Part shown: positions 7,148 through 19,338 of the stretch, piece after piece
How positions within the stretch are numbered: position 1 is the stretch's first letter
How the letters are laid out: each line of letters begins with the position of its first letter
Notes under the pieces: generated by a model
Told to the model about the DNA's origin: nothing
The model's database searches: none
The model's input: the letters and a program-made list of their open reading frames with translations, nothing else
IMG/VR virus record: IMGVR_UViG_3300042320_000605
Coordinates: 1 to 21,303 of that record
Strand: one strand, 5' to 3'
DNA: 21,303 bases
Origin: a virus
Program-made: the position numbers and the translations under genes

Positions 7148-10100
7148 GGTCAAGGACCCGTTCCGGTCGCTCGCGGAGCTGCGAGAGGACACGGTACGCA
7201 GGCTGTCGGGGACCGAGAGCATGGCCCCGCTGCCGACCTCGCGCGCCGAGGGTCCCGGGTTCGGCGACGCGGTCGGTTCGAGCTACGACCTCTCGCCGAC
7301 GCCGCGCCTGTTCCGCCGAACCGGGCTGATCGACAACATCGGCGAAGGGCTCGCCGTCATGCTGCCCGAGTGGGCGGGCGGCATCACGGTCGACGAGTAC
7401 GACCAGGCACTGCCGTCCGGGCCGCCCGAGCCGTTCCTCTTCGACGACTACGTCAAGCGGCTCCAGCCGCGGTCGCAGGACGTCGCGATCCGCCTGTACG
7501 AGAGCGGAGAGATCGACGACGACATGGATCGACGGCAGGTCGACGCGATCCTGACCGACTCGCTGTCCGTGCAGGACGACCTCGAGACGCTCGCCGCGTA
7601 CAACGAGAACGAGGGGTTCCTCAAGACGCTCGGCGCCAGCGCGCTCGGTGGCGCGGGCGACCCGGTGTACATGATCCCCGTCGGCGGCCAGGCGGCGCGC
7701 GGCGCGATGCTGCTGCGGTCGACGCCAGGGATGCTGCTGCGGCTCGGCGGCACCTCCGCGCTCACGATGAGTGCCCTGAACCTGGCGTCCAAGAAGGTGA
7801 TCGACCAGGCGTCCTACGACCTCACCAACGAGCCCGGCATGGGCGACGAGATCGTCGTCGCGTCCATCGGCGGCGGCATCGGCCTCGCCATGCCGGCCGC
7901 GGCCTACACGGCGAAGACGGCGCTCGCATCGGCCATCAACGGCCTCAGCTCCGGCGGCGCCAGGCTGCCGTTCGGGCTCCCGGCCTGGGCGCAGCGGTGG
8001 AACTCGCAGGAGCGGCTGCGCGCGGCGTTCCGGCAGATGAACCTCGACGAGACGGACCGCATCGTGCAGTCCGTGTCCGGCGAGGGCGCGGATGCCGCGC
8101 TGCGCCGCGCCGGCGGAACGATCCGGTTCGACCAGGAGCGCGCGCGGAGCGTCACGATCCTGAAGCGGCTGATCGCCGACGCCCGGGGCGGCACGTTCCA
8201 TCCCGACCTCTCCATCGCGCCGCTCCTCGCCGGGGACGACGCGGAGATCGCCGCGCTCACCACCAAGCTGCGGAACCTGTACAAGAGGGAACGAGCGGCG
8301 ATCAAGACGCTGAACCTGAACGCCATGGCCGCCGGAGCCGCGCCCGTCGCGGACCCGGACGCCTTCCGGTTCGCCATGCAGCGACACCCGGCGCAGGGCG
8401 CATACGACGACCTGCGGATTGTGCGTGCGTTCTTCGACAACGACCCGGAGATGCAGTCCTCGCCGAGCCGGAACCCGATCCTGTCGCTGTTCCTCGGAGC
8501 AGGCGACGCCCTGCCGACCGGGACGAGCCCGGGAGTCCGCATGAGCCGCTGGGGCAACCTGATGTACGACATCACGCGCGCCCTGTCCGGCAGCTTCACC
8601 GACATGACGCCCGGGCAGCTCAAGCTGCTCGGCGGCTCGCGTGCCAGCGCCGAGGCCACCAAGGATGCGTTCGACCTCATGCTCAACGGCGTGACCGTGC
8701 AGATGCGCCGCATCCTGAAGAAGCACAAGATGCTTGGCAAGATCCGGAGCCGGATTCCCGAGGGAAACGCAACTATGCGCGAGGCCGTCGACATCCTCTT
8801 CGACGACCAGAACGCAGCCATGGGCATGGCCGGCGCGGTATCGCAGCGCAACCCGGCGGCCGTCGAGCTCGCCGACACCATGCGAAACGGCTACTTCCGG
8901 CGAATCATGGGTGAGCTCGTGGACGTCGGGCTGTTCGACGCGAACCCGTTCGGGATGCAGCACTACGTCCCGCTCGCGGTGGACGAGCAGGCCGCGAGGG
9001 CCGACAAGCCCGGGTTCATCAAGGCGGCGATCGCGCAGTTCCGGTTCCTGGACGCCGCCGAGCGGCCCAACCAGATCCGGCCCGACGCCCTGGCGCGCGC
9101 CTTCGACCGCACCACCGACAAGGCGATCCGCGACGAGATCGTCGGCGCCGTCCGGACGCACGTCGGCGACCCGGCGTTCGCGCCGGCGAACGGCGACGAG
9201 ATCCGGGCAAGGCTCGAGGACCCCGGCGTCAGCGTGCTGCCCCCGGAGTCGGCCCTGCCGGCGACCGCGCGGACCGCGTACCGGGACTCCATCGAGGCCA
9301 TCTACGCCGAGGGAGCGGAGGCGCTGCAAAGTCGCATCACCAATCCCTTTTCCGAGACGAAGACCTTCGAGTCCATCGGCTCGGCCGGCAGGCCGGACTC
9401 CTTCCGGACGCGCACGTTCAAGGCCGTGGCCCCCGAGCTGCGCGAGTTCCTGATCCGGGACCCGATCACGCTGCTGCGCCGGTACGGCGCGCAGGTCCAC
9501 GGGCAGATCGGGATCGCCCGCGCGATCAAGGACCACCCCGACATCTTCGGAAAGCTCCAGATCCGCAAAGGCAGGAAGATGCGCGGCGTCGAGAATGTCG
9601 ATGACTTGCTGGAGTGGCTCAAGGAGGCCGGAAACGCATTTGATAGTCGATTCAAGGGAAAGGACGCCCCAGAGTTCTCCGGTGCATACAAGGCGGTCCA
9701 GGGCCTGCTGCTCGACCAGCAGGCAATGATCAAGCGCCTCATCGGGCAGACGCTCTACAACGACAATGCACGCCCTGCGGAGGGCACCATGTTCCTCACG
9801 CGCAACCTGTCGCGCGGCGCGATGCTCGTGAACGGCGGCATGATGGGCGTGTCGAACCTCGGCGACCTTGCCATGAAGCTCGGGTGGACGGCGATGCACC
9901 CGATCCGCGGCACGCAGATCCTGTTCGAGACCTTCGCGCCGTTCGTCGGCTCGCTCCGGCGGCGCGACCTCGAGTTCCTCAACATGATGAGCCACCTCTC
10001 CGCGCTGCCGCGGGATACGACGGACTTCGTCATGGCGCAGCGTGGCTTCGGGACCGGGCTGACCAGGTACGCATCCGGCAGGGCGGATGACCTGATGGAG

Positions 10101-12276: not shown

Positions 12277-12510
12277 ATGGCGAAGAAGCGCGACTACGCG
12301 AAGGAGTACCGGGAGTACCAGGGCACGCCCGAGCAGCTGCGGAACCAGAGCCTCAGGCACAAGGCGCGCCGCGCGATGGGCCTGAAGACGGGCGACCCGC
12401 GCGAGGTGGACCACAAGGTGCCGCTCTCGAAGGGCGGCTCGAACGCGCGCGGGAACCTGCGCGTCGTGAGCCGGACGGCCAACCGCCGCAAGGGCGCGAA
12501 GCGGGCCTGA
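12277..12510 (+). CDS. Small HNH endonuclease
   Basis: The 77-residue protein starts at ATG 12277, behind a GGAGGAG site. It carries a complete short HNH motif: EVDHKVPLSKGGSNARGNL, then VVSRTANRRKG. The N-terminus is Tyr/Lys/Arg-rich (KEYREYQGTPEQLRNQ), as in many free-standing phage HNH proteins. There are no zinc-binding CxxC pairs. Its stop overlaps the large terminase start by one base. HNH proteins next to terminase genes are known to support packaging, as for HK97 gp74, by nicking DNA with the terminase; that is established for other phages and inferred here. A homing endonuclease is the main alternative, but the neat coupling in the operon argues for a packaging role. Confidence 0.85.
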   Translation: MAKKRDYAKEYREYQGTPEQLRNQSLRHKARRAMGLKTGDPREVDHKVPLSKGGSNARGNLRVVSRTANRRKGAKRA

Positions 12511-14177
12511 TGGACGAGACGACGATCAGGTACCTCGCCCGGCTGCACGCGGACTTCGACTTCTTCCTCGAGGAGCTGTGGCGCGAGATCGGGATGAAGG
12601 GGATGCCGGCGCACCACCGGGAGATCGCGCAGTGGCTCCAGCAGGACCGCCGCCGCAAGGGCGTGCTCGCCTGGCGCGGCGCGGCCAAGACCTGGGTGAC
12701 GATCGCCTACTGCTGCTGGCGGCTCTTCCGCAACCCGGCCAAGGAGCGGATCACCTACGTCTCCAAGAGCGAGCGGGCGGCCAAGGACAGCCTCTACCTC
12801 GGCCGCAAGTGGATCGGGCAGGCGCGGTTCCTCCAGCACCTGGTGCCGGACCGCGACCTCGGCAACCGCGACTCCGCCCTGATGTTCGACGTCTGCGGCG
12901 CCGAGGCCGACCGGACGCCGTCCTTCGCCGCCTACGGCATCACCGGGCAGATCACGGGCATCCGCTCCACCTGCATCATCGGCGACGACGTCGAGACCAG
13001 CGAGAACACCCTGACGCTCGACCTGCGGCGCAGGATGCGGGACCAGGTCTCGGAGTTCGAGAACATCATCGTCCCGGGCGGGGACATCGTCTACCTCGGC
13101 ACCCCGCACCACGAGGAGACGCTCTACGACTACCTGATCAAGGGCGGGTACTCGTTCCGGGCGTGGCCCGTGATGCACCCCGGCGAGGACGGCTGCGGCT
13201 GCGACCTCGGCCCGATGTACGCGGACATGGCCCCGGGCGACCTGGCGTGGCCCGACCGCTTCAGCCGCGAGGAGCTCGGCGCGCGCGAGGCCGCCGAGGG
13301 CAGGTCGAAGTTCCGGATGCAGTACCTGCTTCAGTGGAAGCTCGGCGACTCCAACCTGGCGCCCCTGCGGCTGTCGGACGCGATCGTGTTCGCGATGGAC
13401 CGAGACCGGGCGCCGATGACCATCAACTGGGGGCTCACCGGCCCCAGCGGCCAGACCACCCGGGTGGACGGCATCCCGAGCCTCGGGTTCGGCAACGACG
13501 GCTTCCACGGCCCGATCTTCTACGACGAGCAGTGGGCGCCCTACACCGGGTGCAAGATGTGGGTGGATCCTTCCGGCCGCGGCGAGGACGAGACGGCCTA
13601 CGCCATCGTCGCCCACCTGAACGGCTACCTGTTCGTCAAGGCCGCCGGCGGGCTCTCGGGTGGCTACGGGCAGGAGGCGCTCTCGGCCCTCGCCGCGGCC
13701 GCCAGGACGCACCGGGTGACCGAGATCTACGTCGAGGACAACTTCGGCCAGGGGATGATGGCGCAGCTCCTGGAGCCGATCCTGGCGCGATTCTTCGCCG
13801 ACCCCGGCGACGAGCCCGACCTGGCCGAGGGCTGGTCCTGCGGCATCCAGAGCGTCCGGGTCTCCACCCAGAAGGAGACCCGCATCATCGACAGCCTCGA
13901 GCCCGTCCTGAACAGCCACCGGCTCGTGGTCCACCCTGACGTCGCCCGGGACGAGGACCTCCAGCACCAGTGGACCCGCATCACCCGCCAGCGGGGCTGC
14001 CTCGACCACGACGACCGCATCGAGGCGCTCGCCATGTGCGTGCGCCAGTGGCGCGACGAGATGGCCCTCGACCCCGTCCGGGCCGCCGAACGCTCCCGGC
14101 AACGGATCATCGACGAGGAGCTCAAGAAGATCCGCGGCGAGATGCACCACGGCACCTCCTGGATCCGGCGAAGATAA
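12510..14177 (+). CDS. Terminase large subunit (DNA maturase B, T7 gp19-like)
   Basis: This 555-residue protein (T7 gp19: 586) is the packaging motor. The ATPase half has a Walker A-like WRGAAKT at residues 55-61, a Walker B CIIGDDVE at 155-162 and a coupling motif YLGTPHHEETLY at 195-206. The nuclease half shows the RNase H-like acidic residues: WVDPSG (Asp353), VEDNFG (408-413, Glu409/Asp410) and LDHDDR (498-503). The fold order is normal and nothing seems missing. The ATG overlaps the HNH stop (TGATG). This is the last gene of the late block; the terminator at 14463-14485 lies about 290 bases downstream. T7-type maturases cut concatemers, but the packaging strategy cannot be read from this sequence alone. 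Confidence 0.93.
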   Translation: MDETTIRYLARLHADFDFFLEELWREIGMKGMPAHHREIAQWLQQDRRRKGVLAWRGAAKTWVTIAYCCWRLFRNPAKERITYVSKSERAAKDSLYLGRKWIGQARFLQHLVPDRDLGNRDSALMFDVCGAEADRTPSFAAYGITGQITGIRSTCIIGDDVETSENTLTLDLRRRMRDQVSEFENIIVPGGDIVYLGTPHHEETLYDYLIKGGYSFRAWPVMHPGEDGCGCDLGPMYADMAPGDLAWPDRFSREELGAREAAEGRSKFRMQYLLQWKLGDSNLAPLRLSDAIVFAMDRDRAPMTINWGLTGPSGQTTRVDGIPSLGFGNDGFHGPIFYDEQWAPYTGCKMWVDPSGRGEDETAYAIVAHLNGYLFVKAAGGLSGGYGQEALSALAAAARTHRVTEIYVEDNFGQGMMAQLLEPILARFFADPGDEPDLAEGWSCGIQSVRVSTQKETRIIDSLEPVLNSHRLVVHPDVARDEDLQHQWTRITRQRGCLDHDDRIEALAMCVRQWRDEMALDPVRAAERSRQRIIDEELKKIRGEMHHGTSWIRRR

Positions 14178-14187
14178 ACCTCCACTT

Positions 14188-14202
14188 GTAAGAAGTTCTT
14201 AC
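14188..14202. repeat. 15-bp inverted repeat after the terminase gene
   Basis: GTAAGAA-G-TTCTTAC: two perfect 7-base arms around one base, 10 bases after the terminase stop. With such a short centre it is more likely a protein-binding site than an RNA hairpin. The half-site GTAAGAA occurs again at 19422 in the leader of the recombination operon, which might hint at a shared regulator. Confidence 0.6.
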
Positions 14203-14287
14203 GCCTTCTCCTTTCTGCGTACCGGGTGGCCTTCATCCGCCGAAACGCATACGGATCGGCTAACGAACGGCAACCAAGAACAACCCG

Positions 14288-14305
14288 TTGACCGATATCG
14301 GTCAA
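14288..14305. promoter_or_regulatory. Perfect 18-bp palindrome, probable operator
   Basis: TTGACCGATATCGGTCAA reads the same on both strands over all 18 bases. It sits alone in the 570-base non-coding gap, next to an 8-base palindrome ATCCGGAT (14305-14312) that recurs with one change at 14333 (GTCCGGAT) and 14486 (ATCCGGAC). Perfect palindromes of this size are typical of sites bound by dimeric repressors. TTGACC could double as a weak -35 element in either direction, but I see no good -10 partner. Confidence 0.6.
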
Positions 14306-14356
14306 TCCGGATCATGTACGAGCGATCGACAGGTCCGGATAAGCGGTACGAAAGTG

Positions 14357-14378
14357 CCACACTTTTCACCATGTGTGG
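14357..14378. repeat. Inverted repeat CCACAC / GTGTGG
   Basis: Arms CCACAC (14357-14362) and GTGTGG (14373-14378) enclose a 10-base loop; two G-T pairs could extend the stem. It overlaps a second small hairpin, AAAGTG-CCA-CACTTT (14351-14365), which ends in TTTT. The two cannot form at once. It could be a weak terminator or a control site. Confidence 0.35.
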
Positions 14379-14462
14379 TGTCCTCGCTCCCCGGCCGCGC
14401 CGGCCGACCCCTTTACACACAGACCATCGCACGGCCTGTGCATGGGCCAAGTGACCAATAAG

Positions 14463-14485
14463 AAGTGTCCGATCAGACACTTTTT
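14463..14485 (+). terminator. Rho-independent terminator of the late operon
   Basis: A perfect 7-base stem AAGTGTC / GACACTT with a six-base loop (CGATCA) runs into five T (14481-14485). It lies about 290 bases after the large terminase stop with no gene between. It fits the end of the late structural and packaging transcript. The stem is AT-rich for this genome, which makes it stand out. Confidence 0.75.
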
Positions 14486-14557
14486 ATCCGGACGTTGAGG
14501 CGAAATAGGAAAACTATCCCTATGTGGAGAAGGCGAAAGAGAGGGGGGAGCGGAGGG

Positions 14558-14641
14558 AGCTCGCGACAAGTGAGAAGCGACTCGCGACAAGCGACTGGTG
14601 ACTCGTTGCTGGTGACTCGCGACTCGTTGCTCGTGACTCGG
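14558..14641. repeat. Twelve tandem degenerate 7-bp repeats
   Basis: 84 bases divide without gaps into twelve 7-base units. The units, in order, are AGCTCGC, GACAAGT, GAGAAGC, GACTCGC, GACAAGC, GACTGGT, GACTCGT, TGCTGGT, GACTCGC, GACTCGT, TGCTCGT and GACTCGG. The consensus is about GACTCGT. They lie between the late terminator and the next gene, and no supported gene crosses them. A 7-base period does not keep a fixed helix face, and no reading frame across it looks real. I recall similar heptads in intergenic DNA of GC-rich bacteria such as Xanthomonadales, from memory only. Confidence 0.8.
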
Positions 14642-14747
14642 CCCCCGTCGACCGACCGCCGCCGGCGGCCACGCCCGGGGCGGCAGCCCCCATCAGTCCA
14701 TTCGCGAAGAAGAACCCGCCCAGGATCCACCCAGCCACGGAGGAGCC

Positions 14748-15047
14748 ATGCCGCGCGGTGACCGCATCCTCAAGATCCGCGGACAACGATGGCGACTCCG
14801 GTTCGTGCCCAACCTCGGCGACGCGGAAGGACTCTGCGACAAGGAGCAGCGGACCATCAAGATCGCCCTGGGCTACCCCGAGGACAGGACCCTCGACTCG
14901 GTCGTCCACGAACTCCTGCACGCCGCACTTTGGGACCTGGACGAGGAGTGCGTCCACGACACGGCCAACGCCATATCCGCCGCCCTCTGGAAGCTCCAGT
15001 ACAGGCGCGTTGACAAACGGAGACCGATCCGTCGCGAAAACTTGTGA
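14748..15047 (+). CDS. Small HExxH zincin-like metalloprotease
   Basis: This 99-residue protein carries VVHELLHAALWDLDEE at residues 52-67: the HExxH zinc motif (His54, Glu55, His58) followed by acidic residues that could give the third ligand. Before it comes a short beta region (RTIKIALGY), after it a helix and a basic tail. This is the layout of small phage zincins with a strand, an active-site helix and a second helix; some distant relatives belong to SprT-like or ImmA-like groups. Substrate and role are unknown; a virion-processing, anti-defence or repressor-cleaving role are all possible. A GGAGGAG site (14739-14745) lies just before the ATG. It stands alone, with GC-rich spacers on each side, and I found no clear promoter. 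Confidence 0.8.
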   Translation: MPRGDRILKIRGQRWRLRFVPNLGDAEGLCDKEQRTIKIALGYPEDRTLDSVVHELLHAALWDLDEECVHDTANAISAALWKLQYRRVDKRRPIRRENL

Positions 15048-15363
15048 GGGGTAGGTAGACCTTGATCCGGTCGCCGCACCCCCCGGGTGGGGGGGTCGCG
15101 CGCGCGCCCCCGCGCACGCACGCTCGCGCGCCCGGGCACGCGCCCGCCGGCGCGCGCGGGACATGGAGTGCGCCGATGGCACGCCGAGCGCCACAATCGG
15201 CGGCCGGCACCGCCTGGCGTGCGCGCCGCGGCCGTTCGCATGGTCCCGATCGGACTCGAACCACTGCCGCCGGCCCAGCTCGAGCCGCTCGAGCGCCCGC
15301 CGAGCGCCGCGCACCGCGCGCCGTGCCGCGCGCACGTTGTCCGCATGAACGTCCCTACCTCTT
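15048..15363. other. GC-rich non-coding spacer with a tRNA 3'-end-like stretch
   Basis: About 315 bases without a credible gene. It begins with a C-run/G-run hairpin (CACCC...GGGTG near 15077-15092) and a long alternating CG/CA stretch (15092-15150). At about 15241-15263 the minus strand reads GGTTCGAGTCC, then CGGGACC and A, the layout of a tRNA T-arm to 3' end. The rest of a tRNA is missing and the T-stem pairs poorly. Open frames across this DNA are Arg/Ala/Pro low-complexity and run through the terminator, so I do not call them. Confidence 0.6.
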
Positions 15364-15401
15364 GCCCAAGGCCCATTCGGGCCCTGGGCTTTTTTGTTTT
15401 T
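15364..15401 (+). terminator. Strong rho-independent terminator
   Basis: GCCCA-A-GGCCC, loop ATTC, GGGCC-C-TGGGC: a 10-pair stem with a single A/C mismatch, followed by T6-G-T5. It is the clearest terminator in the window. It would stop transcripts from the metalloprotease gene or readthrough, and it insulates the promoter that begins 18 bases later. Confidence 0.9.
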
Positions 15402-15418
15402 CCGCCCGGCCGCTGATG

Positions 15419-15446
15419 TTGACAAGTGATACAGCCGATGTACACT
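15419..15446 (+). promoter_or_regulatory. Sigma-70-type promoter of the small-gene cassette
   Basis: Perfect -35 TTGACA (15419-15424), 16 bases, then TACACT (15441-15446; 4 of 6 to TATAAT). The start of transcription would be near 15453. A hairpin GCGCCCG-GCGT-CGGGCGC (15456-15473) follows in the leader. The spacer length equals that of the two other promoters in the window. Confidence 0.75.
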
Positions 15447-18180: not shown

Positions 18181-19338
18181 ATGGTCACGCTCAACAGGAA
18201 CGGCAGGTACTGGCAGGCGCGCTGGGTTGACCCGGTCACGGGCCGCACCGTGCGGCGCGGCATCGGCCCGCGCGCGCAGATCTCGCACAGGCAGGCGGTC
18301 GCGCTCTGCAAGGTGATCGCCGACGAGGTCGCCGCCACCGCGCTGGCGTCGCTCGAGCCCGAGGCGCCGCAGGCCGACGCACCGCCGGCGTCGCCGACCG
18401 TCGCCGAGTGGCGCGACCGATGGCTCGGACAGCAGGTCGGGCTCATGGAGTCCACCATGCGGATGCACCGCCGCTACTGGCGCATGATCGTCGAGCAGCT
18501 CGGCTCCGGCACCCGCCTCGACGACGTCACGCCCGACATGGTGATCGACGCCAGGATCCGCATGGGCGACCGCGCCGACCTGCTGCACGGACCCGGCACG
18601 CTGCGGCGCGCCAAGGCCGAGACGACCATGGCCCGGATGTGCCGAAACGCGCGCAAGTACTGGCACGACGCCGTCGCCGCCGGCCTCGCCCGCCGCAACC
18701 CGTGGACCGCCGTCCGCACCACGGCGCCGGAGATCCAGGTGCCGCGCCGCGTGCTCTCCGACGCCGACGCCGAGCGCATCGTCGCCTGCTGCAAGCCGGG
18801 CGTCGCGCTGCTCGTCGCGCTCTGCCACTGGGCAGGGCTGCGCCGCCACGAGGCGATGGGCCTCCGCTGGGAGCACGTCGACTTCGAGCGCAACCGCATC
18901 GTCGTGTGGCCGAAAACGCACGTGGTGACGAGCAAGCACAAGCACAGGGAGGTGCGCCTCGAGCCGAGGCTCGCCGAGATCCTTCGCGCCGCGCCGCGCA
19001 CCGCCGACAACGTCGTCGGCAGGGTCACCGAGGCCCGCGCATGGCTCGACCTGCGCGCGGCCGCCCTCAAGGCCGGCGTCACGGGCGAGGTGTCGTTCCA
19101 GCTGATGCGCTCGAGCCGCGAGAACCACTGGTTCGCCGCCGGGTATCCGGCGAACGTCGTGACCGCATGGATGGGACACTCGCCGCAGGTCGCGGCCAAG
19201 CACTACCGAGGGGTAGCCGAGCAGTACTATGACGCCGCGCCACAGGGCCAGGCACCGGGATCCCAGGCCACCGAGCTCGCCGCCCTCCGCGCGCAACTCG
19301 CGGCGCTGCAGGCGCTCATCCTCGGCAAGGCCGGCTGA
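18181..19338 (+). CDS. int: Tyrosine recombinase (phage integrase)
   Basis: This 385-residue integrase recombines phage and host attachment sites. A beta-rich arm-binding start (NRNGRYWQARWVDP) leads to a core-binding helix bundle at about residues 73-180, then the catalytic domain. Visible catalytic residues: Arg221 in GLRRHE, Lys252/254 in SKHKHREVRL, Arg310 in FQLMR, His333 in WMGHS and Tyr342 in KHYRG. Box II has Gln (307) where many family members have His; I recall this in a subgroup with (Q/H)-x-L/M-R-x-S. The C-terminus adds a short Leu-rich coiled-coil tail. A GGCAGGGGG site lies upstream. No attachment site can be fixed from this window and no repressor gene is seen. Confidence 0.93.
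   Translation: MVTLNRNGRYWQARWVDPVTGRTVRRGIGPRAQISHRQAVALCKVIADEVAATALASLEPEAPQADAPPASPTVAEWRDRWLGQQVGLMESTMRMHRRYWRMIVEQLGSGTRLDDVTPDMVIDARIRMGDRADLLHGPGTLRRAKAETTMARMCRNARKYWHDAVAAGLARRNPWTAVRTTAPEIQVPRRVLSDADAERIVACCKPGVALLVALCHWAGLRRHEAMGLRWEHVDFERNRIVVWPKTHVVTSKHKHREVRLEPRLAEILRAAPRTADNVVGRVTEARAWLDLRAAALKAGVTGEVSFQLMRSSRENHWFAAGYPANVVTAWMGHSPQVAAKHYRGVAEQYYDAAPQGQAPGSQATELAALRAQLAALQALILGKAG

Follow-up and report, generated by a model that had tools for sequence, protein, structure and literature searches.

The gap behind the terminase gene of this phage holds a palindrome-rich element that is single-copy, common to otherwise unrelated phages and situated at the 3' ends of genes, and that is built of several inverted repeats reusing a few short half-sites. 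We read it tentatively, at somewhat short of even chances, as a horizontally exchanged, hairpin-rich boundary element of gene 3' ends. The window (the whole stretch analysed, 21,303 nucleotides) is a fragment of a T7-like podovirus with a T7-type large terminase, tail tubular protein (PF17212), nozzle (PF25675) and integrase, and also carries RecT-like and exonuclease-like genes. Terminase identity to the nearest named phages is ~37–41%; a single-subunit RNA polymerase is encoded by the relatives G002, G006 and G007.

A preliminary description of this DNA had listed four palindromic features in positions 14188–14378 (the inverted repeat P1, an 18-bp and an 8-base palindrome, and the hairpin P4), and all four are present where it placed them, at a density above chance (Table 1). 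The interval contains four perfect inverted repeats (arms ≥6, spacer ≤12) compared to 0.55 in dinucleotide shuffles (P = 0.004), its summed arm excess was matched by none of 1000 shuffles, and a perfect palindrome with an arm of at least 9 is also rare in shuffled sequence (P = 0.001). Just two of 223 tiles of the window reach an equal summed inverted-repeat score, and TTGACCGATATCGGTCAA is the longest perfect palindrome of its 21.3 kb. The same description was right that AT content exceeds that of the flanks (GC 57–61% around the gap, about 68–71% in the flanks) and that no gene explains the gap, which holds short mechanical ORFs only, none of them credible; one, open in the window as in L130/L132, is closed in the L133 and L005 copies. 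The palindrome-rich feature outruns the interval first described, extending from ~14171 to ~14449; it is non-coding, occurs once per record, and is followed directly 3' by a separate conserved hairpin (element A).

Table 1. Features of the window in and around the palindrome-rich element
Feature	Position	Strand	Details
T7-type terminase large subunit	12510–14177	+	555 aa; PF22530 E=5e-36, phrog_38 E=4e-97
Terminase stop codon	14175–14177	+	gene upstream of palindrome-rich element
Palindrome-rich element, whole	14171–14449	+	14171–14407 is the part matched in other phages
Inverted repeat P1, GTAAGAAGTTCTTAC	14188–14202		GTAAGAA-G-TTCTTAC; 7-bp arms, 1-nt centre
Hairpin GCCGA-N12-TCGGC	14239–14260
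Most conserved core	14287–14354		18-bp palindrome, ATCCGGAT and CCGGATAAGCGGTACGAA
Perfect 18-bp palindrome, TTGACCGATATCGGTCAA	14288–14305
8-base palindrome, ATCCGGAT	14305–14312
AAAGTG-CCA-CACTTT	14351–14365		overlaps P4
Hairpin P4, CCACAC-N10-GTGTGG	14357–14378
Element A	14450–14497		hairpin 14463–14482, A/T tracts; half-sites GTGACCAATAA 14451–14461 and TTATCCGGAC 14484–14493
Promoter-like motif around CCCTATGTGGAGAAGG	14511–14535	+	relatives have ACTATAGGGG or TATAGGGAGAGG at the same place
Small HExxH metallopeptidase-like gene	14748–15047	+	SprT-like and DUF6782 scores below cut-off
Tyrosine integrase	18181–19338		3.8 kb from palindrome-rich element

Copies elsewhere were found by an exact scan of 2.9 million viral contigs, a collection from which records near the window may be omitted. 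It located TTGACCGATATCGGTCAA in L130 and L132, and GGATAAGCGGTACGAA in these two, L133, L005 and L129; the last was rejected as a copy, its contig being unrelated and the match due to chance. By blastn, window positions 14171–14407 match L130 at 87.8% over 237 nt and the element matches L132 (G025) at 91% and 82% over two parts; outside the element, the L130 and L132 contigs gave no nucleotide match to the window. Among their proteins, L130 and L132 share with the window distant metallopeptidase and exonuclease relatives (31–35% identity) and one short weak match. These two contigs are ~98% identical over most of L130, and are therefore counted as one lineage; an HNH endonuclease gene (L132 392–850), directly 5' of the element in L132, is missing from L130 despite this identity. 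L133 (G026) represents a third phage type with a diverged, partly inverted copy, in which a 35-nt module (window 14239–14273, G026 9711–9745) lies opposite to the rest (blastn). Clear copies are thus carried by three independent lineages: the window group, L130/L132 and L133. A fourth probably comprises L107–L113, in which the P1 module, and more weakly P4, lie 3' of a metallopeptidase gene 80–82% identical to that of the window; the P1 counterpart GTAAGAAACTCTTAC occurs in both L132 and L113, which share TGTAAGAAACTCTTAC exactly, and because the model score is weak (12 bits) the membership of this group rests on the P1 match. All copies of the element are from metagenome contigs, in which terminal repeats collapse.

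Conservation across relatives, by which the preliminary description would have judged the palindromes, holds in part. The element is missing from the terminase relatives L002 and L006–L013, and these relatives alone had led to the view that the palindromes are not conserved; the exact scan overturned it, with an 88–91% match in the otherwise unrelated L130 and L132. The element has no named relative in Rfam, in phage and plasmid collections or in 688 bacterial genomes: Rfam 15 gave no match above the gathering score in the window, L130, L132 or L133, and BLAST with the element returned nothing from 50,697 phage and 72,556 plasmid records. The bacterial genomes, from which no copy was recovered, were a sample of 289 from one phylum and 399 from another, phyla that may not include the host, and were searched without a positive control. 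Two covariance-model matches to the core among the 399 (about 27–28 bits) were judged to be chance, one breaking many pairs and the other lacking the P4 hairpin.

The position of the element is one argument for a boundary. In the window, L003, L004, L005, L130 and L132 it immediately follows a stop codon, and in L130, L132 and L133 convergent gene ends flank it; these places, behind a terminase or between convergent genes, would suit an operator less well than a transcription boundary. Since nearly the same stretch lies at the ends of different genes in otherwise unrelated phages, it may be a small shared boundary or regulatory element. We envisage a modular non-coding element of ~240 bp that would be exchanged horizontally among phages of one ecological pool and kept immediately after an operon's final gene. 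There, we infer, its RNA hairpins would halt or trim transcripts arriving from either side and shield RNA 3' ends, keeping late terminase-operon transcripts out of the next operon; in the window it would work in series with element A, the lineage's own conserved hairpin.

Folding provides a further argument. Compared with shuffles, + strand RNA folding gave z-scores of -3.6 in the window, -5.1 in L130 and -3.5 in L132, with no excess in the L133 copy (z 0.8). Of thirteen control stretches taken from the window, the twelve clear of the element ranged from -1.1 to 1.1; the remaining one, at -3.2, begins at 14101 and runs into it. By these scores three of the four copies tested favour RNA structure, although palindromic DNA is by its construction able to fold on either strand. 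Against this, terminator prediction found no intrinsic terminator on either strand of 14188–14378, where no palindrome is a standard intrinsic terminator because none has a proper T run, and the three-copy alignment revealed no compensatory double change. The core sequence is moreover conserved beyond the requirements of a bare hairpin, and terminase relatives such as L002 manage without the element. It is the 3' position and the folding, set against the missing T run and the strict sequence, that lead us to rank a boundary above the binding of a protein to DNA.

That strictness is the starting point of the main rival. Parts of the element are, judged from the copies compared, under sequence constraint: between the window and L130, positions 14275–14354 differ by 3 substitutions in 80, most neighbouring blocks being 10–25% different. 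No base of the 18-bp palindrome varies among the three copies possessing it, and CCGGATAAGCGGTACGAA is invariant in five (window, L130, L132, L133 and L005). Within the core ATCCGGAT can pair with GTCCGGAT (14333–14340), and the P4 counterpart in L130 and L132 is the 8-bp CCACACTT/AAGTGTGG. The stretch may be a DNA-level binding region, at which a host or shared phage protein would sit on paired half-sites (AAGTG/CACTT, GTAAG/CTTAC and CGGATAA) and regulate, bridge or mark the operon boundary; we consider this rather unlikely, if the strongest of the alternatives. In its favour, besides the invariant palindrome and modules that occur inverted, is the recurrence of AAGTG/CACTT, which is present in 10 of 10 related copies and was seen 37 times against 3.7 expected, counts that are not independent because the ten copies are partly homologous. 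Six of the 18 sites in the window fall inside one 323-nt stretch (P = 2e-4, AT-weighted random placement). The densest cluster of the window lies at the element locus, which holds the sole cluster in the window, G001, G003 and G026. The palindrome arms are also less diverged than the rest between the window and L132 (2/80 compared to 26/128 differences, P = 1e-4; arm limits were set by hand, and one hairpin's coordinates are approximate to two bases), but not significantly so between the window and L130 (P = 0.07) or L130 and L132 (P = 1.0). Further against binding, no regulator or repressor gene was recognised in the window, and in L130, L132 and L133 the element does not precede a gene. For the latter reason the operators proposed earlier, although possible, are not favoured, given a location between convergent gene ends in these three. 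The one promoter-like match that overlaps the 18-bp palindrome is weak (9/12), and its second hexamer is altered in L130 and L132.

A less probable explanation is that several phages captured a mobile palindromic repeat of their hosts (REP/BIME-like or MITE-like) which is functionless for the phage. Extragenic palindromes typically sit behind stop codons and between convergent genes, where this element is also placed, and the indels, the 35-nt inversion and the mosaic similarity between copies are what such a repeat might leave. However, there is one copy per phage genome, none in the 289 and 399 genomes of the two phyla sampled (which may not include the host), and the near-identity of the core suggests constraint.

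The preliminary description had proposed operators, an origin of replication or packaging signals as possible contents of the gap. A non-coding cis element that is not due to chance, and is in parts constrained, survives from that proposal; a terminase-linked role in packaging (pac/cos) or as an origin is not supported. A packaging site (pac/cos or concatemer junction) or replication origin would suit the location just 3' of a T7-type terminase, on the flank where the terminal repeats of LUZ100 and Pasto also begin; those repeats, however, start farther on (396 nt past the terminase stop in LUZ100, a predicted 285 nt in Pasto). Relatives that share the terminase and gene order (L002, L006–L013) lack the element, and L014 has tRNA genes in its place. 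Moreover, G025 and G026 carry it ~4.6 kb from their large-subunit genes, which are of other kinds (phrog_2 type in G025, yet another in G026), and we regard a packaging or origin role as very improbable.

Least credible of all is an attachment site of the phage tyrosine integrase: attachment sites do contain inverted repeats, but the integrase gene is distant (Table 1), the carriers G024, G025 and G026 have no PF00589 match (G025, with ends that overlap by 146 bp at 97%, seems close to complete, and G024 and G026 may be partial), and no tRNA-like sequence, including the partial tRNA considered for the gap, was found in 14150–15000 at Rfam sensitivity. Elsewhere in the window, GGTTCGAGTCCGATCGGGACC (15239–15262, minus strand) resembles a tRNA 3' end; as a candidate attachment core it was discarded, being unsupported by Rfam and unmatched in 399 genomes.

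Among relatives of the terminase, the interval between terminase and metallopeptidase consists of a variable slot followed by element A. The slot is empty or a few bases long in L002 and L006–L013 (terminases 68–82% identical, gene order kept), 130–270 nt with abundant inverted repeats in the window, L003, L004, L005 and L078 (enrichment in L003, L004 and L005, pooled P = 0.001), and occupied by two tRNA genes in L014 and L015. Those of L014 (7673–7737 and 7795–7869) are a tRNA-Met and an odd tRNA-like sequence with a very short anticodon arm. The metallopeptidase-like gene is the next gene downstream in all terminase relatives long enough to show it, and 5' of it the window has an array of GACTCG-type short repeats (14558–14640), with variable versions in L002–L005 and L078.

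Element A lies behind terL in L002–L011, L014 (a 63% relative) and L078, and was not recognised in L027 (a 65% relative). Its GTCCRRATAA half-sites face each other about 21–22 nt apart with the hairpin between them, TTATCCGGAC being the reverse of GTCCGGATAA; exact GTCCRRATAA is confined to element A, barring a single additional site each in G007 and the 2.1-Mb G013, and a relaxed search for the element among viral contigs returned, outside the family, mainly chance matches. Stem covariation is 0.251 compared to 0.119 in shuffles (reached in 0/500; slid controls lower), the shuffle control ignoring relatedness, and so appears strong, yet carries no formal probability. With an A tract, hairpin and T tract, compensating stem changes, and folding energies computed on both strands, element A is probably a bidirectional terminator of the late operon, a role supported by the annotated terminator in LUZ100 and the hairpin in Pasto that follow their terminases.

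Beyond element A, a TATAGGG-like motif may, by analogy, recall a T7-type promoter or initiation sequence, but does not recur elsewhere in the genomes; a T7-type promoter repeated genome-wide was rejected, as no repeated motif was present in G002, G006 and G007. In L006 and L009–L013 a very long G-run/C-run hairpin follows the ACTATAGGGG motif ~70–170 nt past the terminase stop, such that a transcript started at the motif would open with a long stem; the L008 and L012 contigs end inside this hairpin region, a probable assembly break. Seven near-copies of TAGTCCACACACAAGG-type repeats occur in G007 (~33975–35878, reverse-complement coordinates), a few kb past the terminase. Further along the window, a strong terminator-like hairpin with a T run and then a 10/12 sigma-70-like promoter, TTGACA-16-TACACT (15364–15446), probably form an early operon boundary. 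The related phages G005 and G006 share 99.7% identity where the late region ends but about 90% in the early region, a sign of recombination near the terminase/early junction.

It is conceivable, though we think it somewhat doubtful, that the element belongs to a family, so far undescribed, of phage elements that are short, single-copy and non-coding, with interchangeable palindromic modules, moving between unrelated phages of one host pool and recognised, as DNA or RNA, by a host factor on which all of them rely or which they have to counteract. What phages of different lineages have in common is usually genes and seldom gene-free regulatory DNA, and a non-coding element common to phages with different packaging and replication genes would point to a common demand set by the host. 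It offers a concrete sequence for fishing out a host factor or for RNA-end mapping, and a warning that palindromes beside a terminase should not be taken for packaging signals on position alone.

Several known systems resemble parts of this arrangement. REP, BIME and REPIN sequences are non-coding palindromes that lie behind stop codons and between convergent genes and spread horizontally, all of which the phage element shares; it differs in being present once per genome, in comprising several distinct palindromes rather than one repeated unit, and in being unmatched in the bacterial genomes sampled. The stoperators of cluster A mycobacteriophages are asymmetric, dispersed through the genome and bound by the phage repressor; they too are short sites that recur close to gene ends in non-coding phage DNA, but the sites described here are clustered at one locus in a phage with no recognised repressor gene. 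Bidirectional intrinsic terminators are matched by element A in its A tract, hairpin, T tract and compensated stem, although its GTCCRRATAA half-sites are conserved beyond what a terminator needs, and they differ from the palindromes of 14188–14378, which have no T tract. LUZ100, a T7-like phage with an integrase, has the annotated terminator T20 and the phage promoter phi8 directly after its terminase (PMC10134795). That pair is the counterpart of element A and the motif following it rather than of the palindrome-rich stretch, which LUZ100 lacks; the likeness lies in the place after a T7-type terminase, in the order of hairpin then phage promoter, and in an integrase-bearing T7-like phage.
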